Of a stretch of 64,000 nucleotides of DNA, positions 18,409 through 33,489 are shown in pieces. The notes beneath the pieces were generated by a model. It was not told where the DNA came from and did no database searches. It saw only the letters and a list, made by a program, of their open reading frames with translations. Each line of letters starts with the position of its first letter. The stretch's first letter is position 1. Source of the stretch: Stutzerimonas nosocomialis (GTDB taxonomy: Bacteria > Pseudomonadota > Gammaproteobacteria > Pseudomonadales > Pseudomonadaceae); assembly GCF_005876855.1 (NCBI RefSeq), contig NZ_QLAE01000004.1, positions 62,001 through 126,000 on the forward strand, given 5' to 3'. The position numbers and the translations under genes are program-made.

Positions 18409-20529
18409 TCACTGACCGCGCGGCTTGGCTCGCGCGGTGGGTTCGGCCACCAGCGGATCGTCCGGCCAGTAGTGCTTCGGGTAGCGCCCCTTGAGGTCCT
18501 TCTTGACCTCCAGATAGGTGTTGCGCCAGAAGCTCGCCAGGTCCTGGGTGACCTGTACCGGCCGGCGCGCCGGCGACAGCAGGTGCAGTTTCACCCCGAG
18601 CCGCCCGCCGGCGATGCGCGGCGTGTCGGCCAGGCCGAACAGCTCCTGCAGCCGGACCGCGAGTACCGGCGGCTGCTCGCTGTAATCGAGCCGGATGCGC
18701 GACCCGGAGGGCACCGTGACGTGGGTCGGTGCCAGCTCATCGAGGCGTTGCGGCAGCGGCCACGGCAACAGCCCGGCCAGCATGCCGGGCAGGTCCAGCG
18801 CGGCAAAATGCGCAAGCCGGGTGACCTTGCCGAGGTAGGGCTGCAGCCACTGCTCGAGGCTGGCCAGCAGCGCCGCGTCGCTGACGTCGGGCCACGCGCC
18901 GTCGCCGGCGTGCAGCTCGCGCAGCAGCATCACCCGCGCCTGCCACTGGCGCAGCTCCGGCGTCCAGGGCAGCAGCTCCAGCCCCCTGCGCCGCACCAGC
19001 CCGAGCAGCGCCGCGCTGCGGGCCTCTTCGTCCAGGCCCGGCAAGGGTTCGCGCGCCAGCACCAGTTCTCCGACCCGGCGCTGGCGCTCGGCACGCAGGG
19101 CACCCTCGCGATCGTCCCACTCCAGCTCGTCCTGCACCCGCACCTGCTCGGCCAGCACCGTCTCGAACAGCGCCGGGTCCAGCGCGGCGGCGCGGTAGAT
19201 GCGCTCTTCGCGCTGTCCCTGATGGCTGCCCAGCTCGGCGACCACCAGCCAGGGTTCCTTCATCAGGCCATCCGGCTCGGCGAACTGTGCCGCCCGCCCA
19301 TTGGCCAGGCGGTAGGCGCCACCGCCCTCCTGGCGCTGCCGGGCGATCCGGTCGGGGTAGGCGAAGGCCAGCAGCGCGCCCAGCCAGCGCGGGTGATGAG
19401 GGTCGGCCACAGGGTCGGTGGCGCGCCCCCGCAGCAGGCCACGAAACTGCCGGGCCAACTGGCGGACGCGCAGGACGCCGCGCCCGCCGTCGAGCTGCGC
19501 AAGGCGACTCGCCAGGTCGGCCCCGCCGCCGCGCTGGAAATCCCGCTCGCTGAGCAACGCGGCGAGATCGGCGCTGAGCCCGGCAAGCCCGAGAGTCTGG
19601 CCACGCAACAGCAGGTGGGCCAGACGCGGGTGTGTCGGCAGCTCGGCCATCGCCTGGCCGTGGGCGGTGAGCCGCAGCCCGCCCGCCTGCGGCGCGAGCG
19701 CGCCGAGCCCCAGCAGCAGGGCGCGCGCCTGGGCGTAGGCGGCGGCCGGCGGCGGATCGAGCCAGGCCAGCTCGTCGGGCGTCACGCCCCAGCGCTCGAG
19801 CTGCAGCGCCAGCCCGGCGAGATCCGCCTGGAGCATTTCGGGCTCGGCGTACGCGGCCAGCTGGGCGTGCTGCGCCTCGGACCACAGGCGGTAGCAGGTA
19901 CCGGGCTGCAGGCGGCCGGCGCGTCCTGCACGCTGGGTGGCCGAGGCGCGCGAAATGCGCCGGGTCTCCAGGCGGGTCATGCCGCTGCCCGGATCGAAGC
20001 GCGGCACCCGCGCCAGGCCCGCATCGACCACGACCCGCACGCCGTCGATGGTCAGGCTCGTCTCGGCGATGTTGGTCGCCAGCACCACCTTGCGCAGCCC
20101 CGGCGGCGGGGCCTCGATCGCCGCCCGCTGGGCGCCGAGCTCCAGTTCGCCATGCAGCGGGCACAGGAGTATGTCGGGCCGATCGGCAAGGGGTTCGGCC
20201 AGCGCCTCGGCGACACGGCGGATCTCGACCTGTCCGGGCAGGAACACCAGCAGGCTGCCGTCCTCGTCATCCAGCGCGCGCAGCACGGCCTGCACGACGC
20301 GCGGCTCGATGCGCTCGGCCGCCTGGTACGGCTGGCCCCAGCGCATCTCGACGGGAAACATCCGGCCCTCGCTGCGCACGACCGGTGCGTCGCCGAGCAG
20401 GGTCGACAGCCGCTCCCCTTCGAGAGTGGCCGACATCAGGAGCACTTTCAGCGGCTCGTCGCGCAGCAGTTCGCGCGCGTTGAGCGTCAGCGCCAGGGCC
20501 AGGTCGGCATCCAGGCTGCGCTCACGCAT
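18409..20529 (-). pseudogene. hrpB: hrpB helicase, chromosomal copy cut off after the DExH box
   Basis: The open frame gives 706 residues beginning M-R-E-RSLDADLALAL, which is the middle of HrpB. Helicase motifs III (LMSATLEGERLS), V (LATNIAETSLTIDG) and VI (QRAGRAGRLQPGTCYRLWSE) and the HrpB C-terminal domain are present. The N-terminal ~135 residues with Walker A and DExH are gone. Homology ends at about 20,521, just after the RSLDAD codons, and AT-rich DNA with the recombinase operon follows. Composition is chromosomal, so this is the resident copy. Without motifs I and II it cannot be an active helicase. A full copy lies at 27564-30089. Confidence 0.9.
20498..20521 (-). other. Left junction of the hrpB-integrated island (att-like)
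   Basis: The last bases of hrpB homology before the recombinase operon (GTCGGCATCCAGGCTGCGC) match, imperfectly and in the same orientation, GATCGGCATCGAGACTACGC at 29687-29706. These encode SLDAD of helicase motif II's downstream edge. Beyond this point the two copies diverge at once. GInt elements are reported to sit between imperfect direct repeats, so this is the likely left recombination site. The exact crossover base is not determinable here. Confidence 0.6.
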
Positions 20530-20613
20530 TTTGCCATTCGCATGGATTTATCATTAGATACCTAAACCCAGCAAATACGGGATCTTCCACCCCAAAGCAA
20601 GGACAAGAATTCG

Positions 20614-22896
20614 TTGACAATCATCAGCAGCACCCTGTTCTTACCCAACTATCCATTCCGAAAAATTTCGGAGCCCCTAGCCAAGGCCTTTCAAACCCAC
20701 GCGTCGTCGGAGTTGATTAACGTTCCGCTGAAGCTGCTCGAGTGCTACCTCCAACTCATCGAGGCAGAACTCTCCTACGTCCATCTGTCGAGTCGAAGCT
20801 GCGAGCCGATCATCATCGGTTTTGTCGGTGCATTGCGATCAAGAACTTTGGCCGATAGCAAAGAGCCTGTTCGGATTCGCTGGGCTCGACGTTTCGTAGA
20901 AACACTTACAAGTCTGCGCGACGAAATTCCAGGCATGCCCAATTTCGACTATTTGATGGCCGACCTCGAAGAAGGGAAAGAACTCTGGGATTCCCAGCAG
21001 AAAAAATTGAACCCATTGGCCTTGCGCTATTGGAACGGATGGCAAGTCGACTCCCTAAAAGGAGTACCAAGTTTTCTCGCGCTGGGAGAACTATGGCACT
21101 CCCATGGCCCTGAGTTTACAGAAGAGTACTACCGGACATGGAAGACTTTTTCGGCCAAGCAAGCAAGATGCAACACCACATTGTGCAACAAGCTGGCCAG
21201 CTATTTATCGAAGAACTCTTTGGAGTGGCCAACTACAACCTTCCAAAACCCAGAAAATATAAAATCATTCTTTTTGCACTTCATGAAGGAGCACTTCTTA
21301 ACCGCATATAGAGAAAATCTAAATATACCAACCCAGATAAAAACGTGGAACAGGTTCATATCGAACTGCGAAGAGGCCTTTATACAATCAGGAGTTTGGG
21401 CAACCCCTTTTGGGGATGGACTACCACGGCCCATCCGCCCCAAACAACACAGAGCGCAAACAAGAGTGTCCGTGTCTGATGAGGGGGTGGAAATCCATGA
21501 AAAACTTATCACTAGAGTCCCTCTCGAAATAACTGATAACGAGGCAATAGAAATATTATTCAAAAGTATCCACAAAGACATCGAAACCGTAAAATCCTGG
21601 GCAACAGAACAAGCCAATGAACTTTACTCGAGAGTCCAACTTCGTATACTCGCAACCACACGGATAAACTCCTCGGAAATCAAACCTCGAAAAGGCTGGC
21701 AGCGTCGGAGTTACGATCACGAATCAATTTGCGCGATTTTTCAAAGCAACGGCTTTCCATCCTCGCGCATGGACTTCGAACACCAATACGGATACACCAT
21801 ATTATCTGCTGATGTCGCAAATATACTTGGACTTCCGGCTGCTGGCACTCTTTATCCCTACCAATGCTTACTGGTAGCAGAGCACAATGAGATCACAGAA
21901 TCTTTCCTTAAGAATTTTCGTTTGTATGACGACAAAGGTAGAAGATCCGGCTTTGTGAAAACCGACACCGGGTATCAGTTGGTCGGCTTCAAGGATAGAA
22001 GAGGTGGAAAGCTAAGCGAGCAGAAAATACAACTAAACGCGAACTCAACAAAGCGAATCTTCGAAGTAATAAAGATCACAGCACCGTTAAGAAAATATCT
22101 CAAGGGAATTGGCGACAGCCGATGGAAGGAGTTATTCCTGACCTGCGGGAAGGGTTTCGGTCACCCGCGGAGCGCTGTAATTCCGACTTGGAACAAAGCG
22201 CTATTCGATAAACACACACGGATTTTTGAACGACTTGCACAACAATTTTCAAATCATACTTCCTTGAGGGGTACTGAACTAAAAAATTTCTTATCTCGAG
22301 TCACCCTTTCTAGTCTTCGAGCCTCATGTGGGGTAGAGGTATATTTAAAAACCCAAAGCGTCGAAGCCATGTCCAAAGCGCTCGGCCACGCAAACCACGA
22401 CTGCCTGCAACTTTCTCACTACCTGCCGGAGTCAATACTAGCCTTCTTCCAAGCCCGCTGGATAAGAATTTTTCAGCGCGGCTTAATCTGTGACGCGATG
22501 AAAGATAGCAGCTTCCTCATAGAGGCCGCAGACTTCGAGACAATGGAAGAGTTAAATCTATTTCTTAAGAACCATGCACTAAAAGACATCCCTGACCACC
22601 TGGTCAACCCGGAGAACACTCAAACAACTGAACCCTATTCAGCGAATCAGTACTCAGAGGTCTACATCTCAGTGGATCCAGGGATAATGACCGCCCTCGT
22701 ATCATTAGAGAAAGCAGTGGCTACAGCGGAACGACCCGAAGAAGTGACAGGAGTAGCACGATACTGGGCAGATCTAACGAAGGCCGTTGTTGCCGAGATC
22801 AGAAGGGATAATGACGCACTACTGAAAGACCACCTTTATGTCGCCGAGCAGAGGTGTAACCCCCGCAGAATGGAGAAGTTGATATATGAATGTTGA
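20614..22896 (+). CDS. ginA: GinA-like large tyrosine recombinase of the GInt operon
   Basis: A 760-residue protein with a tyrosine-recombinase catalytic region in its last quarter. SLRAS (about 568) matches the second arginine box, ALGHANH (about 588-594) the GH box, and SHYLP (about 600-604) carries the nucleophilic tyrosine. The first arginine is not clear by eye. The long N-terminal ~500 residues are typical of these large integrases and have no recognisable domain. The start is TTG 20614 with AAGGA about 10 bases upstream. It overlaps ginB by 11 bases. DNA is AT-rich compared with the hrpB flanks. It is the first gene of the operon, adjacent to the left island end. GInt work reports all gin products to be needed for integration and excision. 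Confidence 0.8.
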   Translation: MTIISSTLFLPNYPFRKISEPLAKAFQTHASSELINVPLKLLECYLQLIEAELSYVHLSSRSCEPIIIGFVGALRSRTLADSKEPVRIRWARRFVETLTSLRDEIPGMPNFDYLMADLEEGKELWDSQQKKLNPLALRYWNGWQVDSLKGVPSFLALGELWHSHGPEFTEEYYRTWKTFSAKQARCNTTLCNKLASYLSKNSLEWPTTTFQNPENIKSFFLHFMKEHFLTAYRENLNIPTQIKTWNRFISNCEEAFIQSGVWATPFGDGLPRPIRPKQHRAQTRVSVSDEGVEIHEKLITRVPLEITDNEAIEILFKSIHKDIETVKSWATEQANELYSRVQLRILATTRINSSEIKPRKGWQRRSYDHESICAIFQSNGFPSSRMDFEHQYGYTILSADVANILGLPAAGTLYPYQCLLVAEHNEITESFLKNFRLYDDKGRRSGFVKTDTGYQLVGFKDRRGGKLSEQKIQLNANSTKRIFEVIKITAPLRKYLKGIGDSRWKELFLTCGKGFGHPRSAVIPTWNKALFDKHTRIFERLAQQFSNHTSLRGTELKNFLSRVTLSSLRASCGVEVYLKTQSVEAMSKALGHANHDCLQLSHYLPESILAFFQARWIRIFQRGLICDAMKDSSFLIEAADFETMEELNLFLKNHALKDIPDHLVNPENTQTTEPYSANQYSEVYISVDPGIMTALVSLEKAVATAERPEEVTGVARYWADLTKAVVAEIRRDNDALLKDHLYVAEQRCNPRRMEKLIYEC

Positions 22897-24982
22897 ATTA
22901 CCAGCAGAGCTAGACTTCCTAAAAGCGTTCTACACCGACCCTAGGACAGAATACAAAAAATCAAGTTGGTTGCTGAGTGATTTCGACTTGCACATATGGA
23001 AATATGATTTCAATTTTGCGACCCCCAACACGATCAACTGGGACATTACATTAGACGACGAAACTTCTCTGCTTGCCCAAAAAAACAAGCCATTACTAGA
23101 CGGGCTAAAGTATTTTTTAACAACATCTACACGTTCTGTTCGAGGATCGGCGATCGAATTAGGTTCACTAGCCGCACAGATGACGATGTTTAACAGGGCC
23201 ATTCACGTTGCCGATTACATTCTTCTGAATGCAAAAGAATATCAGCTATCCAGATTCGGATTGGCTGGAATCAACAGCCATCACATGAAGAGAATGCTAG
23301 ACGTCTTCTCAAGCGTCAACGGTTCGGAAGAGTCGGTTTACGAGTGGACCAAGACTATCAGCAAATTTTGTTTAAGCTTAATAAACACTTCCAGTTCTAT
23401 CGAACTCGATAGCATTCTAGATCAATATCCACGAATGCGCATTGTGACTGACGAACAACTAGATGAGCATCACCTGGAAATACCTTTTGATTTAATACCT
23501 TATGCAAGAGCTGCCTTGCATTTGCATGGATATTATAAAAAAAGATCAACTGCTGGAGTCCGCACCCCTAACACCTTGCAGCTAGCGAAATCGCTTTATG
23601 CCAACACACTGAAAGGCGGGCATCTAAAACTAAAAACATTAAGCTCATTAGAATTCTATACTGATAATGAGAGAGAAATAATATCGAGAGAGTATCCCGG
23701 TTCATCGGTCAGGACAGGTGACCATGAAGCAATGACATCCGGTCCATTTCGCGCCTACAGATTTTTAACATACAACCTTGGAATTCTTCATGAAATTGGG
23801 CTTCCAGCTCCCGAAGTATCAGAGCTGAAGCAGATACTTGATTATGAACCATCACTCTCTGAAGCTGCTCGGTTTCGGACGCTGCCGTACCCAATAGTGA
23901 GAGACGCCTTCAGAAAATCAATCGAGTACCATTTCAAGTATGGAGAACTTCTAATAGAAGGTTTCTGCCGCATGGCAGAGCATTGCAACCTCAATGGAAT
24001 TGCCCCTACGCAACTTACCAATGGAGAGTTACAAGACATTATGCCCCCTGAGCTTATCGACATGGGAATTAGGAAGCTTGGGCTTGTATGTCAAACGGTG
24101 TCTATTAGGCACGGCGCACTGAGAAAGCAGTCAAATTACTTCATAGAACTCAGAAATAATGTGGGACTGATTGAGTGCTTACGCATCTATATTGGATGTG
24201 TCCAGATGGTAGTTGGAACAATCATGGCTCGCCGAATAGGAGAAATGCTCGATTTGCACTCGACTGACTGCCTAGATAAAAGCGAAAGATGGTTGATCTT
24301 CTTAAATAGAAAAAGCACATCCAACCTGTTCGGCATAAGACAACGCCAAGCACGCCCAATCGAACCCATTGCCGTAAAAATGATTAAAAACTTAATTTCC
24401 ATGCAGCAGAGACTTTTAAAAAGCGGATTCATAACTGAAATGACTAGCCTCTTTGCCCCCCCCGGACTCCTCGGAAATGCCGGGCTTAGTCAGCAAACAA
24501 TGTATGCCTACAATAGAAACCTAGACTTGTTGTGCGATTATTTCGAACTACCACTAAATTCAAAAGGAGAAAGGTACTATATCCGACAACATCAACTTCG
24601 ACGCTTTTTCTCCATGGTATTCTTCCACTCGAGCAGTTTTGGAGGACTGGAGACACTGCAGTGGATGCTCGGGCACACCGACATGCAGCATGTTTGGAAT
24701 TACATTACTGAGTCCACTGATGGTGCAGTTTTGCGTAGCGCTAAGGCTCAGTTCATAGCAGAAAGCTTGCATAATGGCGATATCACTGCTTACGAAGATC
24801 TAGCCGAAATACTAAAAATTCGTTACAACACAGATAATTTTGCTCTAGTAGACACTGCTGAACTTGAAGACGCAATCACCGACATGATAAAGACAGGGAA
24901 AGTCCAGATTGAGCCAGAGTTTTTCACAGACGAAACCGGCCAACATATGCGCGTGGTAGTAAAAATTCAGAGCACAGACTAA
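22886..24982 (+). CDS. ginB: GinB-like tyrosine recombinase of the GInt operon
   Basis: A 698-residue tyrosine recombinase. ARRIGEML (about 448) fits the first arginine box, HQLRRFFSMVFFH (about 569) the HxxR box, WMLGHTD (about 592-598) the GH box, and WNYITES (about 605) supplies the tyrosine. The N-terminal half has no named domain. It starts inside the end of ginA and ends directly before the ginC ATG (TAA then ATG), so the genes are coupled. A run of eight Cs at 24456-24463 lies in frame within FAPPGLLG. Codon use is AT-rich like the rest of the operon. Confidence 0.82.
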   Translation: MNVELPAELDFLKAFYTDPRTEYKKSSWLLSDFDLHIWKYDFNFATPNTINWDITLDDETSLLAQKNKPLLDGLKYFLTTSTRSVRGSAIELGSLAAQMTMFNRAIHVADYILLNAKEYQLSRFGLAGINSHHMKRMLDVFSSVNGSEESVYEWTKTISKFCLSLINTSSSIELDSILDQYPRMRIVTDEQLDEHHLEIPFDLIPYARAALHLHGYYKKRSTAGVRTPNTLQLAKSLYANTLKGGHLKLKTLSSLEFYTDNEREIISREYPGSSVRTGDHEAMTSGPFRAYRFLTYNLGILHEIGLPAPEVSELKQILDYEPSLSEAARFRTLPYPIVRDAFRKSIEYHFKYGELLIEGFCRMAEHCNLNGIAPTQLTNGELQDIMPPELIDMGIRKLGLVCQTVSIRHGALRKQSNYFIELRNNVGLIECLRIYIGCVQMVVGTIMARRIGEMLDLHSTDCLDKSERWLIFLNRKSTSNLFGIRQRQARPIEPIAVKMIKNLISMQQRLLKSGFITEMTSLFAPPGLLGNAGLSQQTMYAYNRNLDLLCDYFELPLNSKGERYYIRQHQLRRFFSMVFFHSSSFGGLETLQWMLGHTDMQHVWNYITESTDGAVLRSAKAQFIAESLHNGDITAYEDLAEILKIRYNTDNFALVDTAELEDAITDMIKTGKVQIEPEFFTDETGQHMRVVVKIQSTD

Positions 24983-25591
24983 ATGAAAAAAATCTCCGAC
25001 CTAGAGCCACATGCTAGCGCCACATTAATAACCAGTGAACTTTTAAAGCTAATCTACCGTAATCCTGACTATTTTTCCAAAAACGAGAACATTCTAAAGG
25101 CTCTCAGAAGCCAAGGAGCGCTAGCCAAGCTCGAATTCAATTTCGAGGACTCAGGGGCTATAAAGTCAAAATCCCCAATGAGCATCAACACTTTAAAATC
25201 TCACGCCAACTTACAGTTCAAGGGAGGATTTAAGGAACTTGATACCCTCCGCCTAGCGGCATTGAGGGCCATTGAGAAGGTCAATGGCAGCAAAGAGGCC
25301 ACTTCAACAAAACGCACTAAGTCCGGACTTTCGCGACTAGTAACTGAACTAGAGGAGAGACTTGATAAGCAGCGCTGCGCCAACATGGTCCTCCTCCAGG
25401 GATTAAGCCTGGCAATTAACGAGTTAAGAAATATACGTAGCAATCTAGATCCCGCTCTACTTGAAAAGCGGGCAAGCGATGCCGTTCAGGCACTTACTGC
25501 TCTACTGAGCCTCCCTCCAGAACAGCCACCCCCCCCCTCCCCTTCTTCCGGAGACGGGCGAGTTACGCGACTGGAGGAGTATCGCAAGTGA
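24983..25591 (+). CDS. ginC: GinC-like small helical accessory protein of the GInt operon
   Basis: A 202-residue protein, rich in charged helices, with no enzymatic motif. Residues ~110-170 (SRLVTELEERLDKQRCANMVL and following) are strongly predicted coiled coil or helix-loop-helix. The C-terminus is a proline run followed by a charged tail (GDGRVTRLEEYRK). It starts at the ATG directly after the ginB stop and overlaps ginD (GTGA). GInt operons carry one small putative helix-loop-helix protein besides three integrases, and this fits that role by size and position. The proline codons contain a nine-C tract (25529-25537) whose slippage would change the last ~18 residues and the coupling to ginD. 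Confidence 0.75.
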   Translation: MKKISDLEPHASATLITSELLKLIYRNPDYFSKNENILKALRSQGALAKLEFNFEDSGAIKSKSPMSINTLKSHANLQFKGGFKELDTLRLAALRAIEKVNGSKEATSTKRTKSGLSRLVTELEERLDKQRCANMVLLQGLSLAINELRNIRSNLDPALLEKRASDAVQALTALLSLPPEQPPPPSPSSGDGRVTRLEEYRK

Positions 25592-27057
25592 CAAACCACC
25601 TTCGCCAACAACTATTTAAACCACTTAAAGAGCTAACACTCTTTAGCTACCATGCGCATGGAAGTACTATAACAAAAGATGGTTCTGGCCTGCCGTTTTG
25701 CTGTTGGCCTGATGGCACGCCCAATAACGTCGCAAATCTCTACATGCTCGCACTACGTGACCGCCCTGGCCGAGGTGGAAAAGGCCTATCAAGGCACGGC
25801 GGTAAAGGCGGAAGCATTGGGGAGTATGCATCCAAAATAAGCCCACTAGTTCGCTACTGCTTCAGATACCGAACTGACTTTATAGGACTGTCTGACCAAC
25901 AGTTCTCAGACTTCATTGACGAATTAAGAAAGGAGCGATCTGTCAACGATCCCACTGTAAATAGGCGCACCGAAACTACACTCCTAGCAATTGGTAGGAT
26001 CTGTCTAGATTTTTTGCAATTCGTAGGACGTCTTTATGGCGACGATGCATTTGTATCAGAGAATGGAACCATCCGCGCCGTAATGAAAACATTTACTATC
26101 ACAACGCGCTCAGGAAGAACGATAAAGCGGAGTTATCTGCATCACCACTCTCTTCATGTATCTGGAACGCGCTACCACACGCGCGATCCGATCCCGAGCG
26201 AACATATAAAGCTTTTGCGAGATTCAGCAAACAAAATCCACCCATCGAGACACCTTCAACTTCGACGGAATCTGGTGATTTCCTTGCTTGAGCATACGGG
26301 CGCTCGACGCAGCGAGATAATTGAAATTACCGTTTCGGACATACGTAATGCCATGAACATGTCGTTCCCATTGCTACGTCTGCGAACCTTGAAACGTGGA
26401 ACCTATTCCGAGCGTTTTATCCCGATTTCAAGAGTGGTACTAAGCGAAGCTAAGAAATATATTCAGTTTGCCCGCAGAATATCTCTTCGCAACTTCAAGG
26501 ACACGGATCACGACAGACTCTTTGTTCAAGAAAAGACTGGTAAGCCGCTCGGTGCCTGCAGTATTACGAATGAAATGATTCAACTTAGAAGTCACGCCGG
26601 CATCGAAGAAAAAGTCTGTGCACACATGTTCCGCCATGCTTTCATCACCAATCTTTTCGTACTCCTAATCAAAAGACACAAGTTCAAGCAAAAGGACGAC
26701 TTCAGAAGCGCCCTGCTTAATAGCAAAAAGTTTCTTTACGACGTCATGCTGTGGACTGGCCACAAAGATCCCCTCTCGGTAGAACGGTATATTCATCTTG
26801 CATTCGCCAAACTTGATGGATACGAAGACATCGTTTCATCTGCCCATATAATCAGGACTAACCGTATATATGACCAGGCCGAGGAGCTACTTCTGAACGC
26901 ATTAAAAAATGGTATGCCAGTTGACGAGTACGTGCGTGAACTGGAGAAGCTAAAGCAACTTCGGCAAGAAGATCTCAAGAAAGAGACAAAGGAAGAGGAA
27001 GAGGAAGAGAATACGGAGTCAGTCAAAAGCTGGGAGCATTGGCATAACCACCTTTGA
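25588..27057 (+). CDS. ginD: GinD-like tyrosine recombinase of the GInt operon
   Basis: A 489-residue integrase with the clearest catalytic set of the operon: HTGARRSEIIEI (first Arg box, about 235-246), CAHMFRHAFITNLF (HxxRH, about 344-357), LWTGHKDP (GH, about 388-395) and ERYIHLAF (Tyr, about 401). The C-terminal 40 residues are a highly charged Glu/Lys tail. It starts at GTG 25588, overlapping the ginC stop, with GGAGG about 10 bases upstream. It is the last gene of the operon. The three recombinases share no long obvious identity, as in GInts, recombinase trios and Tn554-type TnpABC; gene sizes and order fit GInts best. Confidence 0.83.
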   Translation: MTNHLRQQLFKPLKELTLFSYHAHGSTITKDGSGLPFCCWPDGTPNNVANLYMLALRDRPGRGGKGLSRHGGKGGSIGEYASKISPLVRYCFRYRTDFIGLSDQQFSDFIDELRKERSVNDPTVNRRTETTLLAIGRICLDFLQFVGRLYGDDAFVSENGTIRAVMKTFTITTRSGRTIKRSYLHHHSLHVSGTRYHTRDPIPSEHIKLLRDSANKIHPSRHLQLRRNLVISLLEHTGARRSEIIEITVSDIRNAMNMSFPLLRLRTLKRGTYSERFIPISRVVLSEAKKYIQFARRISLRNFKDTDHDRLFVQEKTGKPLGACSITNEMIQLRSHAGIEEKVCAHMFRHAFITNLFVLLIKRHKFKQKDDFRSALLNSKKFLYDVMLWTGHKDPLSVERYIHLAFAKLDGYEDIVSSAHIIRTNRIYDQAEELLLNALKNGMPVDEYVRELEKLKQLRQEDLKKETKEEEEEENTESVKSWEHWHNHL

Positions 27058-27123
27058 ATGTTGCGATACAACTCGCTTCACTGCCGAAGCGTCCATAAAG
27101 CGCGTGTCTAATGACGACGACGT

Positions 27124-27324
27124 TTACCGGTCGTTCACTGGGGCGAAAGAGACAATCCGCTCCTGCCCGTGCAAGGTGGCATCCTGAATGCCCGACTCAA
27201 TCCGTAGGGCTCTGTCCGGATAGATGTCCTTGAGGTTCGTCATCACCTGACCCTTGTCAAGGCTGAAGATCACTTGGCCGTTGTGATCAACCAGGAATGC
27301 ATGGTCGATGCCGCCAAAGTCCAC
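27124..27324 (-). pseudogene. Fragment resembling a periplasmic sensor (Cache-like) domain
   Basis: A 66-residue frame (AFLVDHNGQVIFSLDKGQV, then HGQERIVSFAPVNDR) resembles part of the ligand-binding Cache domain of chemoreceptors or diguanylate cyclases. It has no start-associated signal sequence and no output domain. It sits between ginD and the mosaic hrpB, so it is most likely carried-over donor DNA. The identity is weak, by pattern only. The 239 bases to the hrpB stop show nothing recognisable. Confidence 0.35.
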
Positions 27325-27563
27325 GACATCTATGATCCTCCACTAGGGTGTCAAGGGTGAACCGTCGCTTAAGTTCCGGAGCACACATTTACAAAGGGCC
27401 GAAATCTGCAAAAAACGGGCACGTCGACTCTACGAATGGCAATACGGTAAAACTCGCACGGCCCTAGTACGCCGGTTGACTGGCACACTCAACAGAGAGC
27501 CAACCTGCGTTGCTCTCGAGGCAACACTGGGTTCCGGTTCACACGCCCGCATTGAGCAACAGC

Positions 27564-30089
27564 CTACGATTTTCGCGGCTTAGCTCTAGCTGTAGCCTGG
27601 GCCACAAGCGGGTCCTCAGGCCAGTAATGCTTAGGGTACCTACCTCGTAAATCTTTCTTCACTTCCGCGTAGGTATTGCGCCAGAAACTCGCCAGGTCCT
27701 GGGTGACCTGCACCGGGCGCTGGGCCGGGGACAGCAGGTGCAGCTTGACGCCCTGACGGCCACCGGCGATGCGCGGAGTGTCGGCGAGGCCGAACAGCTC
27801 TTGGAGGCGCACCGCGAGAACCGGCATCTCGTCGCTGTAGTCGAGGCGGATGCGCGAGCCGGAGGGCACTTCCAGCGTACGCGGCGCCAGCTCGTCGAGG
27901 CGTTGCGGCAGCGGCCAGGGCAGCAGGCCATGGAGGATGCCGGCGAGGTCGAGGTTGGCGAAATGGCTGAGGCGGCTGACCTTGCCCAGCCAGGGCTGCA
28001 GCCACTCCTCCAGGCTGGCCAGAAGCGCCGCGTCGGAGAGGTCTGGCCATTCGCTGCTGCCCGTGTCGGCCAGGTCCAGTCGGCGCAGCAGCGCCACCCG
28101 CGCCTGCCACTGGCGCAGCTCCGCACTCCACGGCAGCAGCTCCAGCCCCTTGCGTCGCACCAGACCGAGCAGCGCACGCGAGCGGGCCTCGTCATCCAGT
28201 TCGGCAAGGGCTTCGCGGGCCAGCACCAACTCACCCACTTTCACCTGACGTTCGGCGCGCAGCACACCTTCGCGCTCTTCCCAGTCGAGCAGGTCCTGGC
28301 ACCTTACCTGTTCGGCCAGAGGGCCGTCGAACAGTGCGGGATCAAGGTCGGCCGCGAGATAGATGCGCTCTTCACGCTGGCCCTGGCGGCTACCGAGATC
28401 GGCGATCACCAACCAGGGCTCCTTCATCAGCGCATCCGGCTCGCCAAAGGTGGCTGCACGGCCATTGGCCAGCCGATAATCGGCCCCTCCGGCACGACGT
28501 TGCTGGGCAATGCGGTCCGGGTAGGCGAACGCCAGCAGGCAGCCGAGCCAGCGCGGGTGATCCGGATCGGCCACCGGCTCGCTGGCCGGGCCACGCAGGT
28601 AGGAACGGAACTGCCGCGCCAGCTGGCGAGCACGCTGCACGCCGCCACGAGCGCCACGCGCTGCCTTGTCGTTACCGGCCAGCAAGGCGAGGCGGCTGTG
28701 CAGGTCGGCACCGCCACCACGCAGGATGTCGCGCTCGCCCAGTAGGGCGGCGAGGTCACAGGCCAGGCCGCCGAGTCCCAGGGCGTGGCCACGTAACAGC
28801 AGGTGGGCAATGCGCGGATGGGCGGGCAGTTCGGCCATGGCCTGGCCATGGCGGGTCAAGTTGCCATCGTCGGCCAGTGCGCCGAGGCGTTGCAGCAGGT
28901 CACGGCCCTGGGCGTAGGCAGCCGTGGGCGGCGGATCGAGCCAGGCCAGTTCATTGGGATCACCAATCCCCCAGCGCGCCAGTTGCAACGCCAGTCCGGC
29001 AAGGTCGGCCTGGAGGATTTCCGCGCTCCCGTGGGCGGCCAGTTGCTCATGCTGGGCCTCAGACCAGAGCCGGTAGCAGGCACCCGGCTGCAGACGGCCG
29101 GCACGGCCGGCACGCTGGGTCGCGGAGGAGCGGGAAATACGCTGGGTGTCCAGGCGAGTCATGCCACTGGCCGGGTCGAAGCGCGGTACACGCTCCAGGC
29201 CCGCGTCCACCACCACGCGCACGCCATCGATGGTCAGGCTGGTCTCGGCGATGTTGGTGGCCAGCACCACCTTGCGCTTGCCCGCCGGTGCCGGCTCGAT
29301 GGCCGCGCGCTGGGCAGCGAGGTCCAGTTCACCGTGGAGCGGGCAGAGCAGGATCTCTGACCGGCCAGCGAGGCGCTCGGCCAACTGCTCGGCGACGCGG
29401 CGAATCTCCGCCTGGCCGGGGAGGAACACCAGCAGGCTGCCAGGTTCATCGGCCAGGGCCTGGAGCATGGTCTGTACCACCCGGGGTTCGAGCGCCTCGC
29501 CGATCTGACTCGGCCGCCCCCAACGCTGCTCCACCGGATACATGCGACCTTCGCTGCGTACCACAGGCGCCTCGTCCAGCAGGCGCGACAGGCGCTCGCC
29601 TTCCAGCGTGGCGGACATCAGCAGCACCTTCAGCGGCGGTTCGTCGCGCAACAACTCACGGCCGTTGAGACACAAGGCCAACGCCAGATCGGCATCGAGA
29701 CTACGCAGATGATACTCATCAAATATGAGCAGCCCAACGCCATCTAGGGCAGGATCGTCTTGAAGCCGACGAGTAAGAATGCCTTCAGTCACTACTTCAA
29801 TTCGAGTCTGTGGTCCGACCTTACTCTCCAAGCGAATTCGATAGCCGACTGTTTGCCCAACGCTTTCTCCCAGCTCGCTCGCCAGTCGCTCAGCTGCGGC
29901 TCTGGCAGCTAGTCGACGTGGTTCGAGCATGACAATAGTCTGGTCGGCCAGCCAAGGCTCTTCCAGCAGCGCTATTGGTACTCGCGTTGTTTTGCCTGCC
30001 CCCGGCGCTGCCTCAAGTACAACTTCATTACGTGCAGACAAGGCATCTCTTAAAGCGGGCAAAACAGATTCAATCGGCAACAAACTCAT
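27564..30089 (-). CDS. hrpB: HrpB ATP-dependent helicase, complete mosaic copy
   Basis: An 841-residue DEAH-type helicase of the HrpB family. Walker A is APGAGKTT (about 29-36), motif II FDEYH (about 122), then III LMSATLEGERLS, V NIAETSLTIDG and VI QRAGRAGRLQPG, followed by the HrpB C-terminal domain ending near ARAKPRKS. I chose ATG 30089, preceded by AGGAG; an upstream ATG adds eight residues. The DNA is a mosaic. Codons from 30089 to about 29706 and from about 27680 to 27564 are near half G+C, while the middle is high-GC like the chromosome. The first break coincides with the point where the resident copy is cut. The residue after DEYH is Leu (DEYHLRS), where DEFHERS would be usual. It presumably replaces the broken copy. 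Confidence 0.9.
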   Translation of the reverse strand: MSLLPIESVLPALRDALSARNEVVLEAAPGAGKTTRVPIALLEEPWLADQTIVMLEPRRLAARAAAERLASELGESVGQTVGYRIRLESKVGPQTRIEVVTEGILTRRLQDDPALDGVGLLIFDEYHLRSLDADLALALCLNGRELLRDEPPLKVLLMSATLEGERLSRLLDEAPVVRSEGRMYPVEQRWGRPSQIGEALEPRVVQTMLQALADEPGSLLVFLPGQAEIRRVAEQLAERLAGRSEILLCPLHGELDLAAQRAAIEPAPAGKRKVVLATNIAETSLTIDGVRVVVDAGLERVPRFDPASGMTRLDTQRISRSSATQRAGRAGRLQPGACYRLWSEAQHEQLAAHGSAEILQADLAGLALQLARWGIGDPNELAWLDPPPTAAYAQGRDLLQRLGALADDGNLTRHGQAMAELPAHPRIAHLLLRGHALGLGGLACDLAALLGERDILRGGGADLHSRLALLAGNDKAARGARGGVQRARQLARQFRSYLRGPASEPVADPDHPRWLGCLLAFAYPDRIAQQRRAGGADYRLANGRAATFGEPDALMKEPWLVIADLGSRQGQREERIYLAADLDPALFDGPLAEQVRCQDLLDWEEREGVLRAERQVKVGELVLAREALAELDDEARSRALLGLVRRKGLELLPWSAELRQWQARVALLRRLDLADTGSSEWPDLSDAALLASLEEWLQPWLGKVSRLSHFANLDLAGILHGLLPWPLPQRLDELAPRTLEVPSGSRIRLDYSDEMPVLAVRLQELFGLADTPRIAGGRQGVKLHLLSPAQRPVQVTQDLASFWRNTYAEVKKDLRGRYPKHYWPEDPLVAQATARAKPRKS
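29687..29706 (-). other. Right junction candidate (att-like repeat and composition break)
   Basis: GATCGGCATCGAGACTACGC repeats, imperfectly, the sequence at 20502-20521 in the same orientation. To its left hrpB is high-GC; to its right the hrpB 5' part drops to about half G+C with different codon choice. This is the natural candidate for the second recombination site of the island, or for the end of an older element that resupplied the 5' part of hrpB. Confidence 0.5.
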
Positions 30090-30301
30090 GATGGCTCCTA
30101 GCTGAGCCACCAATTATAGATACGAGGGAAGCTGTTACGGCACGGCGGTATGTCAATCACGCCCAGTGCACGGCTCCCTTCGGGCCGCTCAGAGATAAAC
30201 GGGGCCTATTTAAACGGCATGATGGACATCAAGGCCACAGCCAGCATCTGCCCCTTGAACACCTGACGAGGGGGATCCTCTTGCCAGTGTTGCGCCCCGG
30301 C

Positions 30302-30653: not shown

Positions 30654-31838
30654 TCACTTTTCGATCACTGCATTGAGCGCGCCAGAGCCATCCCATATGG
30701 GGTAAGGGAGCCCTTTCACCTTCTTATCCTCGACGAGGAAGGCCAGGCTATAGCGCGCGCGGGTAATCGCGACGTATAGCTTGTTTCGCGACTCCTCCGT
30801 CTTATCCTTGTCGAACACTTTGGCATTTCCGCCAATGAACTTCAGATGTTTATCTGACGGGATCACAAGCACTCGATCAAAGCCTAAGCCTTTGCAGGAA
30901 CCGAACGTATAACAGATAAGGTTACCCGGTAGGTATCCAGTGCCGGTGGTGGACGACCAGCGCAGTACTTGAGGCTGAAACGCTGCCAAGTAATCGCTCA
31001 CCTGAGATTGTTTCACTATGAAGGTGCCATGGTGATGCGATATTTCGTCTGGCACTTTCTCGACACCTGTTACCGTCTTGTCATACAGCCCCAGGTGGAT
31101 CGTGTCGGAGAGGTCGCAGATTTCTTGTATGCACCTGCGATTCTTCGGCATCGAATGCTTTTCGAACTTCATTTTCCCGACGAAGTAATCGACCTTCTGT
31201 TGAGGCGTCTGCGGAGCCTTATGGCCGAACGTCGTTGTGTAGATTGTCTGTCGAAAGTCGCCCACACAACAGATCGAGTCGACCATGACCTTGTTGAGTG
31301 ATTTGATCACGTCGTAGTCCCAACCGACCAAATCCTGCACTTCATCAAAATAGACCCTTTGATAAATCTCCTTCAACCGCTTGGCAGGGGCATTTTTGGA
31401 TAGTTTCGCAATGAGGGTCGCAAGCTTTGCCAAAAACCCGGAGTACGCCTTTGTTTTGCAGGGCGTCAGGTAATGCAGTGGATTGATCGTGCCATCTTCC
31501 GATTTTTCAGCTCTGCCTTCAATGTAGTAGGTTGTACCTGATATTAAGTGAGGGTTGTTCTCAGTGAACGAGATAGTCGTGATCCGATCTGGAAATACCT
31601 CGCTCTGATAGGGACGCACCATATCTTCCAGGTAAAAAGAGAACAGCCCCTTGACGACGAAGTGCTCACTGCTAGCACCGTACAACTCAACAAAACGAGA
31701 GCGCAACTCTGCCTGATTATTGGTTGTATAGGTGACTACAAGCACACGTCCACCAGCCTTGATGGTCTCAATGGCTTCAGTAATGATCTTGTGCGTTTTC
31801 CCTGATCCGGCGCCTGCGACCCAGAGTTCGTTAGGCAA
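30654..31838 (-). CDS. gajB: Gabija-like GajB: UvrD/Rep-type superfamily 1 helicase
   Basis: A 394-residue SF1 helicase. Walker A is VAGAGSGKT (about 8-16), motif Ia lies in VLVVTYTTNNQAEL, Walker B is VYFDEVQDLVGWD (about 168), motif III CVGDFRQTIY (about 190), and motif VI YVAITRARYSLAFLVED (about 357-373). It is shorter than typical GajB (near 490 residues). Its start overlaps the 3' end of the OLD/TOPRIM gene by 8 bases, the usual gajA-gajB order. In Gabija, GajB works with GajA, a DNA nuclease, to stop phage infection. Assignment rests on the gene pair and motifs; no structural comparison was possible. Confidence 0.78.
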   Translation of the reverse strand: MPNELWVAGAGSGKTHKIITEAIETIKAGGRVLVVTYTTNNQAELRSRFVELYGASSEHFVVKGLFSFYLEDMVRPYQSEVFPDRITTISFTENNPHLISGTTYYIEGRAEKSEDGTINPLHYLTPCKTKAYSGFLAKLATLIAKLSKNAPAKRLKEIYQRVYFDEVQDLVGWDYDVIKSLNKVMVDSICCVGDFRQTIYTTTFGHKAPQTPQQKVDYFVGKMKFEKHSMPKNRRCIQEICDLSDTIHLGLYDKTVTGVEKVPDEISHHHGTFIVKQSQVSDYLAAFQPQVLRWSSTTGTGYLPGNLICYTFGSCKGLGFDRVLVIPSDKHLKFIGGNAKVFDKDKTEESRNKLYVAITRARYSLAFLVEDKKVKGLPYPIWDGSGALNAVIEK

Positions 31839-33489
31839 AATCGAGCACCTCGTCTAGAAAGGCTGGGTACTTGAAGTCCAGTGCGCCATCGAACAGTTTG
31901 ACCGCAGAGTCGACCTTGCGAGCGCCTTTACCGTTGCCCTTTACGCTCTTGAACCAACGGATCAAATTTTCCCTTCGATCCTCCAGAGAGACCTCTGCGT
32001 TGTAGATATTGAAGGTTTCCGTCGACAAGACTTCCTTTGCGAAAGCGTCAAGGGTTTTAATGTCAACTGCGTTGGCATAAATCATCGCTGGCTCAAGCGA
32101 AAATTCGGCGTCGTTCATCGACGAGTACAGCTTGATGTTAGGAAACGCAGCGTATTCCAGACGTCCTTGTACAACGTTACCGTTATAGTCGCCGTCATTA
32201 TCCCTGAGCACATGGATCTTGGTGCCGATCTCTTTACCGACTTCGATGAACGTCTTGAAACCTACACCGCGTACCACGATGATATCTATCCCGTCCTGCT
32301 CAGGCAGTCGGTTGTGTTTTCGTTGGTAGATTTTCTTGAGCACCAGTTCGTCCGACGGCCCCTCGACCAGGATGACCTTGCCCGACAGTGCCACCCGCAA
32401 GGTGTCGTAGCCAGGAAGACGCTTGAGGGTCTTCACCACTTTAGCGTCTAGCGTGTGCAGCCTTTTGTACCCTGACTGCACAAGGCAAATTTTGTCGATA
32501 CTCAGCTTGTTCAACACATACGAGCTGTGGGTGGTCAGGAACAGCTGCTTGTCTCCTCGCTGGGTTTCGATGTAGTGCACAAGCTTGTTCAGATTGGTGT
32601 GAGATAGATGATTTTCGGGCTCTTCCATCATCACCAGATCGATGTCGTGGGATTTGTTCTGAATGGCCAGTTTAATCTGCACATTGCTCTGTTCACCCTT
32701 GCCGATGAGGTGAAAAGGCACATCATCGACCTCAAGCTGTAGGCCGGTCTGGATGGAGCCCGCAGGTAACGTACTTGCTGCAATGGTGAGCTTGCTATCG
32801 GTGATAAGGTGACCCGCATCAAGGCTGGCATTGACCGTCCTGACCTCCCCGGAGTTGTTAAACACCTGCAGGTTTTCACGATAATTGAGGGTCAGCTTGA
32901 CGAGCTCTTCCTTCGCCAATGCGGTGTTGAGAATGCTCGAAATGTACTGGTTCTTCCCCATGGTTGGGTGGATACGTGTGGGGTCGATGTACAGCGCCTT
33001 AAACTTCTTAGCGATCGGTTTTATCGGATTCCAACCGAAATCGAGCCATTCCACCTTATAGAATTCGATCGGAATGCTGGTGATGTTCGGCTTGGTCAGC
33101 AGGTGGCTCTCGTATACGGCCTCCAGCGACGGGTCGAAACAGGCTTGTACCAAGACGCCCTGGGCGTCAGCCTTGAGGCTGTTGTTCGAGCCTCGGTACT
33201 CAGGCACACCGTCAATGTAGGCTTCGATGATAAGGCTGGGCAGGTGCTTGGAGCTCAAGTCAGAGGCGAGAAACCGCGTGACGGCATCCTGATTGAAAAG
33301 ATCAGGGGAGAACTCGCCGTTGAAGGGCCGTCCACGATGATTGTAATTGAGCACAATTTCTAACGCTTCCAAGATTGTGCTTTTACCAGCATTGTTGTCG
33401 CCGACGAAAATATTGACGTCGTCGTTGAATTCTAGAAGTTCGTCGCGAAATTTTTTGAAGTTGATCAGCTTGATGGCTTTAACGTGCAC
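31831..33489 (-). CDS. gajA: Gabija-like GajA: OLD-family ATPase/TOPRIM nuclease
   Basis: A 552-residue OLD-family protein. The N-terminal ABC-type ATPase has Walker A VGDNNAGKST (29-38), a signature-like region near 260, Walker B DLVMMEEPENHLS (about 289) and the switch histidine in LFLTTHSSYVLN (about 318). The C-terminal TOPRIM has VILVEGPSDELVLKKIY (catalytic Glu, about 372) and HVLRDNDGDYNG (DxD, about 423). Class 2 OLD proteins are paired with UvrD-type helicases, exactly as here with the overlapping downstream gene. GajA nicks DNA when nucleotides are depleted during phage infection. The length is close to the GajA norm. AT-content is intermediate, so the pair is probably acquired. Confidence 0.82.
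   Translation of the reverse strand: MHVKAIKLINFKKFRDELLEFNDDVNIFVGDNNAGKSTILEALEIVLNYNHRGRPFNGEFSPDLFNQDAVTRFLASDLSSKHLPSLIIEAYIDGVPEYRGSNNSLKADAQGVLVQACFDPSLEAVYESHLLTKPNITSIPIEFYKVEWLDFGWNPIKPIAKKFKALYIDPTRIHPTMGKNQYISSILNTALAKEELVKLTLNYRENLQVFNNSGEVRTVNASLDAGHLITDSKLTIAASTLPAGSIQTGLQLEVDDVPFHLIGKGEQSNVQIKLAIQNKSHDIDLVMMEEPENHLSHTNLNKLVHYIETQRGDKQLFLTTHSSYVLNKLSIDKICLVQSGYKRLHTLDAKVVKTLKRLPGYDTLRVALSGKVILVEGPSDELVLKKIYQRKHNRLPEQDGIDIIVVRGVGFKTFIEVGKEIGTKIHVLRDNDGDYNGNVVQGRLEYAAFPNIKLYSSMNDAEFSLEPAMIYANAVDIKTLDAFAKEVLSTETFNIYNAEVSLEDRRENLIRWFKSVKGNGKGARKVDSAVKLFDGALDFKYPAFLDEVLDFA

Follow-up and report, generated by a model that had tools for sequence, protein, structure and literature searches.

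Site-specific genomic islands usually avoid harming their host by using tRNA genes or gene ends as targets, or by bringing along a short piece that restores the target. In the case of tRNA and tmRNA islands, the available part of the Islander publication describes that island sequences regenerate the split gene (PMC4383910). For the GInts, the accessible sections of the respective publication describe an operon of four genes in the order ginA, ginB, ginC and a small ginD, all of which are needed for excision, as well as a circular form, flanking imperfect direct repeats of 10-17 nt and a cargo of 2.5 to at least 70 kb (PMC5385486). According to the same sections, GInts spare their target via insertion at the gene end and via outward promoters, and a duplicated ribonucleotide-reductase gene of P. 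aeruginosa PA_D16 has a pair of GInts at its end; neither hrpB nor a carried full copy of the target is mentioned in these sections. The SEs possess, as stated in the available part of PMC10214605, an operon with the order intA, tfp, intB, srap and imperfect inverted ends with a 6-bp spacer.

The gene hrpB has been named among the structural genes with island insertions in P. aeruginosa (PMC8373256), with no mention of a second hrpB in the accessible text, and the accessible text of PMC4821235, which is cited there for island insertions, does not contain hrpB. We found no report of an element-carried full hrpB in the open-licence literature, which is no proof of absence. The locus described here is very probably the insertion of a GInt-like element that splits its target gene at a site encoding DEF[H/Q]-E and carries a complete working replacement copy of this target.

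The split hrpB gene and the island between its parts

The analysed stretch of 64,000 nucleotides (the window) corresponds to positions 62001-126000 of contig C4 of genome G000, an assembly of 4.76 Mb in 86 contigs. Of all named records found, Stutzerimonas azotifigens 115A1 has the hrpB most similar to the split gene (94.9% amino acid identity in the C part), and we therefore refer to the window genome as Stutzerimonas-like. The features of the locus are collected in Table 1. They confirm the basic observation of an initial annotation made from the sequence alone, i.e. a broken hrpB, a recombinase operon and a complete second hrpB.

Table 1. Features of the hrpB locus in the window
Feature	Position	Strand	Basis
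Host hrpB C-terminal part (C0), Glu-Arg-Ser-Leu to stop	18409..20523	-	ORF, tblastn, Pfam Helicase_C, CON_HrpB, HrpB_C
attL, host GAG-CGC-AGC joined to element end	20521..20560		Junctions of 16 genomes compared
g1 (ginA of the initial annotation), 760 aa, tyrosine-recombinase fold, incomplete catalytic set (xLR instead of HxLR)	20614..22896	+	9-sequence alignment
g2, 698 aa, large tyrosine recombinase	22886..24982	+	Alignment
g3, 202 aa, small protein	24983..25591	+	ORF; homologues at same place
g4, 489 aa, ordinary tyrosine recombinase (PF00589)	25588..27057	+	Pfam 9.8e-14
Complete element-borne hrpB, 841 aa	27564..30089	-	Pfam DEAD, Helicase_C, HA2_N, CON_HrpB, HrpB_C; GC; trees
Likely recombination boundary inside element hrpB	29628..29666	-	Change-point scan, sliding identity
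Codon 128 (CTG, Leu), equivalent to insertion site	29706..29708	-	Column comparison
gajB (Gabija), cargo	30654..31838	-	PADLOC GajB 7.5e-120
gajA (Gabija), cargo	31831..33489	-	PADLOC GajA 2.8e-196

The resident hrpB, located on the minus strand, is interrupted at DEFH/ERSLDAD (slashes mark junctions). As initially described, the cut lies directly after the DExH box: the host homology ends at a GAG codon (20523-20521), and the C part opens with this Glu codon following DEFH. The N-terminal part, which ends with IFDEFH, was found on the same contig but outside of the window (G000:C4:142489-142902), with the right junction at C4:142522, equivalent to window position 80522. Since the N part lies beyond the window, the bounds of 18409-30113 originally given for the island are too small. 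The two hrpB parts are approximately 60.0 kb apart (20524 to about 80521), and we take this stretch as a single island. It contains the four genes of the recombinase operon, the complete hrpB, a Gabija system and other cargo. A further match of the hrpB search on contig C43 (41% identity, 1424-aa frame) is presumably HrpA.

In hrpB orientation, the left end reads GGCAAAA/TGCGTG/AGCGCAGCC, where AGCGCAGCC is the host side. The right end (attR, outside of the window and read in L007) has the host sequence GAAT followed by TCCACG and TTTTGC (GAAT/TCCACG/TTTTGC), and the signature of the element ends is TTTTGC...TTGTCAAAA. Read by eye and not scored against chance, the two ends resemble imperfect inverted repeats that flank a 6-nt spacer. 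At the right junction the host codons encode DEFH or DEYH, in synonymous variants, in 16 genomes. The 6 nt at the left end vary among the element lineages and also in one of the nine carriers of the window's element (G229).

The operon (20614-27057, plus strand) adjoins attL, and all of its genes are directed away from the left junction. It had been regarded as ginABCD-like, which holds for the number of genes but not for their order. The initial annotation also counted three integrases. In the alignment of nine sequences, two of these, g2 and g4, retain R, HxxR and Y without exception, whereas the His of HxxR is absent from g1 in 9/9. Of the additional His residues, that of the LGH in g2 is present in eight of nine sequences (Gln in G077) and the further H of g4 in all nine. 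Homologues of g3, 201-227 aa in length, occupy the same place in eight other operons. The order of the window operon is a degenerate, a large catalytic, a small and an ordinary catalytic protein, and the small protein is third and the ordinary recombinase fourth in the 8/8 other operons examined as well. Searches of Pfam and NCBIfam gave no match for g1 and no family match for g3, and in a comparison with the Gamma-mobile-trio a single match was obtained, a weak one between g4 and GmtY that stayed far below the cut-off. In one carrier of the window's element (G172) g1 itself is interrupted.

Distribution of the element and its targets

Searching 298 Pseudomonadaceae genomes for g1 (E 1e-10) resulted in 29 positive genomes, in all of which hrpB was searched (21 + 8). 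In 16 of them the split of hrpB falls on the same codon and g1 adjoins the C part, and all 16 possess a complete extra hrpB. Nine carry the window's element (G000, G103, G143, G152, G172, G180, G198, G213, G229) and seven carry others (G110, G122, G271, G176, G207, G077, G294); the records L038, L039, L041, L042 and L043 were taken as G103, G213, G180, G172 and G143, and counted once. A single intact hrpB without any extra copy is present in 12/29 genomes. The flanks of the insertions are host-specific, and the 16 genomes include assemblies of 1-4 contigs (G198, G122, G229, G152). The recurrence of the junction in 16/29 g1-positive genomes is therefore neither chance nor a single assembly error, the latter having been named initially as an alternative, and it agrees with the proposal that the codons of a conserved helicase motif, here motif II of hrpB, serve as attachment site.

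G241, also positive for g1, has an hrpB N part that runs into the right end of an element (L135, L090). Neither an hrpB C part nor a complete hrpB was found in this genome. Loss of hrpB thus appears to be tolerated there, and the idea of hrpB as an essential gene that is rescued is not supported.

Within the genus, 12/56 genomes are hrpB-inserted and 36/56 possess one full-length hrpB. The remaining eight are G225, G241, G221, G245, G239, G129, G249 and G247. Two like copies on two contigs were found in G245, the gene was matched in pieces in G239 and G129, G249 has part of the gene only, and no hrpB was found in G247; the assemblies of the last two are 71-73% complete. Beyond the family, at E 1e-30, g1 was detected in 2/389 other genomes of an order draw, which also holds family members, and in 0/368 other genomes of a class draw. 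The E. coli genomes gave no megablast match to the operon.

The core consisting of operon, hrpB and Gabija is 99.8-99.9% identical between the window and L038, L039, L041 and L043 (Stutzerimonas) as well as L040 over 12.5 kb, and equally so between the window and G229, G152 and G198 over 11.5-12.0 kb. KOS6 (L042) has this core as two separate pieces with identities of 98.9% and 99.9%. The split host genes of G000 and G103, the single such pair computed, differ by a dS of 0.245 (C part) and 0.378 (N part), and near-identical elements occur in different species. L040 is a short contig filed as a Planctomycetaceae MAG and is probably a misplaced Stutzerimonas contig. The Gabija pair lies near the element hrpB within the near-identical 12.5-kb core. 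By eye, we take the region around 36000-62000 of the window, L006 and L007 to contain heavy-metal cargo, namely RND efflux operons, cation diffusion transporters, a copper-type P-ATPase, a multicopper oxidase and two-component regulators.

On plasmids, a distant g1 match was obtained in 16 of 72,556 records. The P. aeruginosa megaplasmid pPA1609-475 (L108, L110) carries a related element in a ter gene cluster; at the far end of this element lies an hrpB, the N part of which is low in GC. Another candidate, H2 (CP109682), was rejected, as it resembles a piece of chromosome that contains an ordinary hrpB.

The initial annotation had named two hrpB copies in a genome without gin genes as evidence against its interpretation. 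G221 does have such a pair, but its second copy is the neighbour of a recombinase operon of another type. This operon (L091 2036-10503; 502, 638, 690 and 150 aa) has an SE-like order, is located at the 3' end of hrpB (GRYPK/HYWP) and comes with a complete hrpB of its own, which is low in GC and has Leu at codon 128. In a profile comparison with this operon, g4 reached 91% and g2 7% probability, all other pairs at most 1%.

hrpB is not the only target. We inspected the left flanks of 13 other g1 loci, four of which were too short or absent, and found a yggL-like frame in G146, G070 and G142. A family search with PF04320 confirmed a cut yggL in these three genomes and in G101 and G241. The gene is cut at DEFQ/ELGF in the DNA sequence GATGAATTCCAG/GAACTG, which resembles the hrpB site. 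Four of the genomes allowed the left junction to be read, while the cut gene of G241 starts at a contig end. All five yggL-inserted genomes possess a complete second yggL. In G146, G101, G070 and G241 the cut-off N part is followed by the right end of the element and the complete yggL lies close inside, with the cut yggL and the g1 match of G101 being on separate contigs. The complete yggL of G142 and the operon are separated by about 65 kb, and no yggL N part was found near this copy. In the scan of the 298 genomes, the genera labelled g1, g12 and g15 have at least two yggL matches only in those five genomes. Two yggL are also present in G113 of genus g6 and in 24/25 genomes of genus g9, with no such element shown in the latter. 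Each of the 16 hrpB-inserted genomes has one yggL. The target in G270, presumably an antiporter gene, was found without a second copy of its cut C part (E 1e-15), and the rule of a spare copy is therefore not universal. The reading of targets covers all g1-positive genomes but seven more distant relatives (G093, G126, G132, G153, G200, G274, G280).

Structure and evolution of the carried hrpB

The complete second hrpB has the same orientation as the broken one, as originally noted. The program-made reading frame starts with a TTG at 30113, while the start common to the homologues is the ATG with its first base at 30089. The extra hrpB adjoins the operon in the window type, G110, G122, G077, G176 and G207, and lies approximately 0.1-2.2 kb from the right end in G271 and G294. 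In the seven genomes with other elements its GC content is 0.51-0.65, compared with 0.63-0.76 of the hosts' own parts. The copy of the window is a mosaic: its N part (GC 0.53) belongs to the element lineage, whereas its C part (GC 0.69) is sister to the hrpB of G070, a member of another genus (92.6% amino acid identity, support 100/90). The N parts of the element copies are set off from the 42 host rows with a branch support of 94/90, with a base-composition warning for several rows.

The GC boundary had been placed at the codon of the cut. However, the best change point of the window copy is codon 148 in comparison with G070 (142-154) and codon 147 in comparison with G146 (128-156), while the junction follows codon 127, so the GC step is about 21 codons beyond it. 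The gains were 25.7 and 25.4 log units for the window copy and 196 and 81 for G225, a control pair of two host genes (G070/G146) reached 15.7 at codon 612, and the change point of the pPA1609 copy at codon 246 (236-264) is weak, since its gain of 17.7 hardly exceeds that of the control. The GC step in the window copy looks like a scar of homologous recombination with a host gene. A further case is G225 (L088, L089), where the window's N part (100% nucleotide identity) is followed by C1 sequence and then by a host-like C part, with the switch at codons 248-251. The genes to its left are host genes, its other side has a separate host N part, and g1 was not found in this genome. From this arrangement, we infer that G225 is a product of recombination between an element copy and a host C part, with the operon deleted.

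In G176 and G207 (L102, L103), a different complete hrpB is accompanied by pieces that are 92-98% like the window's C part, one of which contains a stop; the pieces are perhaps the remains of a replaced earlier spare. The operon of G122 is 94.6% identical to that of the window on the nucleotide level and its element hrpB is just 70% alike. The extra gene thus changes while its presence stays. The dN/dS of element copies was 0.119 (C part, G110/G176) and 0.023 (N part, G122/G271), that of the window copy versus G070 0.062 (C part), and pairs of element copies with saturated dS gave a pN/pS of 0.13-0.27. These ratios show purifying selection on the hrpB copies. The extra hrpB is a whole gene and not a fusion across the motif. 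For the split host C parts, nine comparisons gave 0.06-0.18, for intact genes five gave 0.06-0.12. Just two of the nine (0.17, 0.18) are above the range of the intact genes, and there is accordingly no clear decay of the split C parts.

We also compared the insertion-site codon between 40 host rows and nine element-type rows (G000, G110, G176, G207, G122, G271, G077, G294, G221; G176 and G207 being near-identical). At column 128, 39/40 host rows have Glu, the sole exception being G271, where the codon is made by the junction, and 9/9 element-type rows have Leu. This is the only column with at least 95% conservation in hosts that is changed in all nine element-type rows, and the only one with one shared replacement across them. 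However, column 208 (Val in 90% of the hosts) also differs in 9/9 and columns 130, 178 and 189 in 8/9, so that element and host genes diverge elsewhere too. Four rows were set aside before counting: G124, G201 and G225 with Leu, and pPA1609 with Glu. Counting G124 and G201 as hosts, Glu is present in 39/42. In both of these genomes (L133, L134) hrpB is present once, is high in GC and encodes Leu-Arg-Asn at the insertion site; its C part groups with element copies and its N part with hosts. These genes possibly represent insertion-resistant host alleles. An excess of nucleotide change at the insertion site of the element copies was not found in eight rows, since 5-31% of the windows of the gene are as divergent or more. 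The Leu at codon 128 is a hint at immunity to self-insertion, and shared descent of the N parts would explain it, too. Against immunity, the pPA1609 copy retains Glu and the yggL copies retain the amino acids of the site.

Possible explanations and relation to known elements

The preferred explanation assumes that the element recognises the DNA that encodes DEF[H/Q]-E, which would be GAATTCCAC/GAGCGC in hrpB and GAATTCCAG/GAACTG in yggL, including synonymous variants. By analogy with GInts and SEs, g1-g4 would most likely perform the integration, the recombinases joining the element ends to this site and thereby splitting the host gene. The complete copy near one end of the element would then be kept as the working gene, being expressed and taking over the lost function, and the changed codon at its insertion site might protect it from self-insertion. 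Over time, recombination between host and element copies would swap or partly overwrite the carried copy, resulting in mosaics and sometimes in the loss of the operon.

The interpretation of the initial annotation is partly supported. Its view that insertion does not need to mean loss of function agrees with the complete hrpB carried by the element. However, it had assumed that the element resupplies the interrupted part across the motif boundary, and a whole separate hrpB is carried instead. In a classical target-restoring island, the element would supply the missing part only and the gene would be rebuilt by fusion at the att site. The GC step of the window copy lies within approximately 60 nt of the att codon and the interval obtained with G146 almost reaches the junction, as one would expect from such a fusion. 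Yet no N part precedes the host C part within the 60 nt read at the 16 left junctions, the N part is not continued by a C part at any of the 16 right junctions, the complete copy lies inside of the element, either beside the operon or near the right end, and six of the seven other element-copy rows have a low GC content on both sides of the codon, while in the seventh, G077, it is the (partial) N part that is higher in GC. Both junctions and change point disfavour a fusion at the att codon, and we regard this explanation as highly improbable. It is scarcely more probable that the second hrpB is ordinary cargo, acquired by chance and unrelated to the insertion site. Host genes are a frequent cargo of elements, the copy is not always found at the same place, and a second yggL is present in nearly all genomes of genus g9 for other reasons. 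However, the extra hrpB is present in every hrpB-inserted genome versus 0/12 g1-positive genomes with an intact hrpB, the yggL-inserted elements are accompanied by a second yggL rather than a second hrpB, and the hrpB copies are diverse yet constrained.

It is also conceivable, albeit rather doubtful, that the locus represents a natural cleave-and-rescue element, which breaks its target and carries the only working and insertion-proof copy, the spare serving mainly the retention of the element. Cells losing the element in any way other than clean excision would then lose the target gene. The contrast between Leu128 in the element-type rows and Glu in the hosts fits to this, as does the carriage of a whole copy rather than a part. 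On the other hand, four further columns differ in eight or nine of the nine rows, the single-copy genes of G124 and G201 also have Leu, the plasmid copy keeps Glu and the yggL copies their residues, the site is not unusual in its nucleotide divergence, the host gene would be restored by a clean excision, and no complete hrpB was found in G241. Returning to the split target with a carried replacement, a more far-reaching version can be proposed tentatively. In this version an entire element family would exist, in which each lineage cuts a DEF[H/Q]-E site, carries a complete copy of its target (in the case of hrpB a recoded and insertion-resistant one) and switches target and copy together.

If this is true, bacteria would have, in this split-and-replace family, a natural equivalent of the engineered cleave-and-rescue elements. 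A spare that is matched to the target looks like a way to land in a working gene without costing the host this gene, and the recombinase family cuts deep inside of protein genes, in hrpB at the catalytic motif of the helicase, with a matched whole spare. The combination of a split gene and a complete copy inside can serve as a genomic signature for finding further targets and elements, and it becomes a testable question how the element tells its own copy from that of the host. Moreover, the spare transfers alleles of hrpB from one genus to another, leaving mosaic genes in the hosts.

Compared to the GInts as characterized in the available part of PMC5385486, the element shares the end-located operon of four genes, coding for three proteins with recombinase fold and one small protein, the large and variable cargo, with approximately 60.0 kb being within the GInt size range, and the site specificity (same codon in 16/16 hrpB cases). 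Unlike in GInts, the small protein comes third and is followed by an ordinary recombinase, and the targets are cut inside of the coding region. As read by eye, the ends look imperfectly inverted around a 6-nt spacer; those of GInts are described as direct repeats. With the SEs, as far as they are depicted in the accessible part of PMC10214605, the element has in common two catalytic recombinases, one recombinase-fold protein and one small protein, and its ends, with the spacer placed by eye, may fit the inverted ends with a 6-bp spacer; the order intA-tfp-intB-srap is absent. Since the order of the operon matches neither GInts nor SEs, we named the element GInt-like and did not file it as a GInt. 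The in-frame fusion of host and element that marks a target-restoring island is absent at 16/16 insertions. Like the tRNA and tmRNA islands in the cited part of PMC4383910, the element splits its target and would provide its function, but with a whole separate protein gene that is carried inside.
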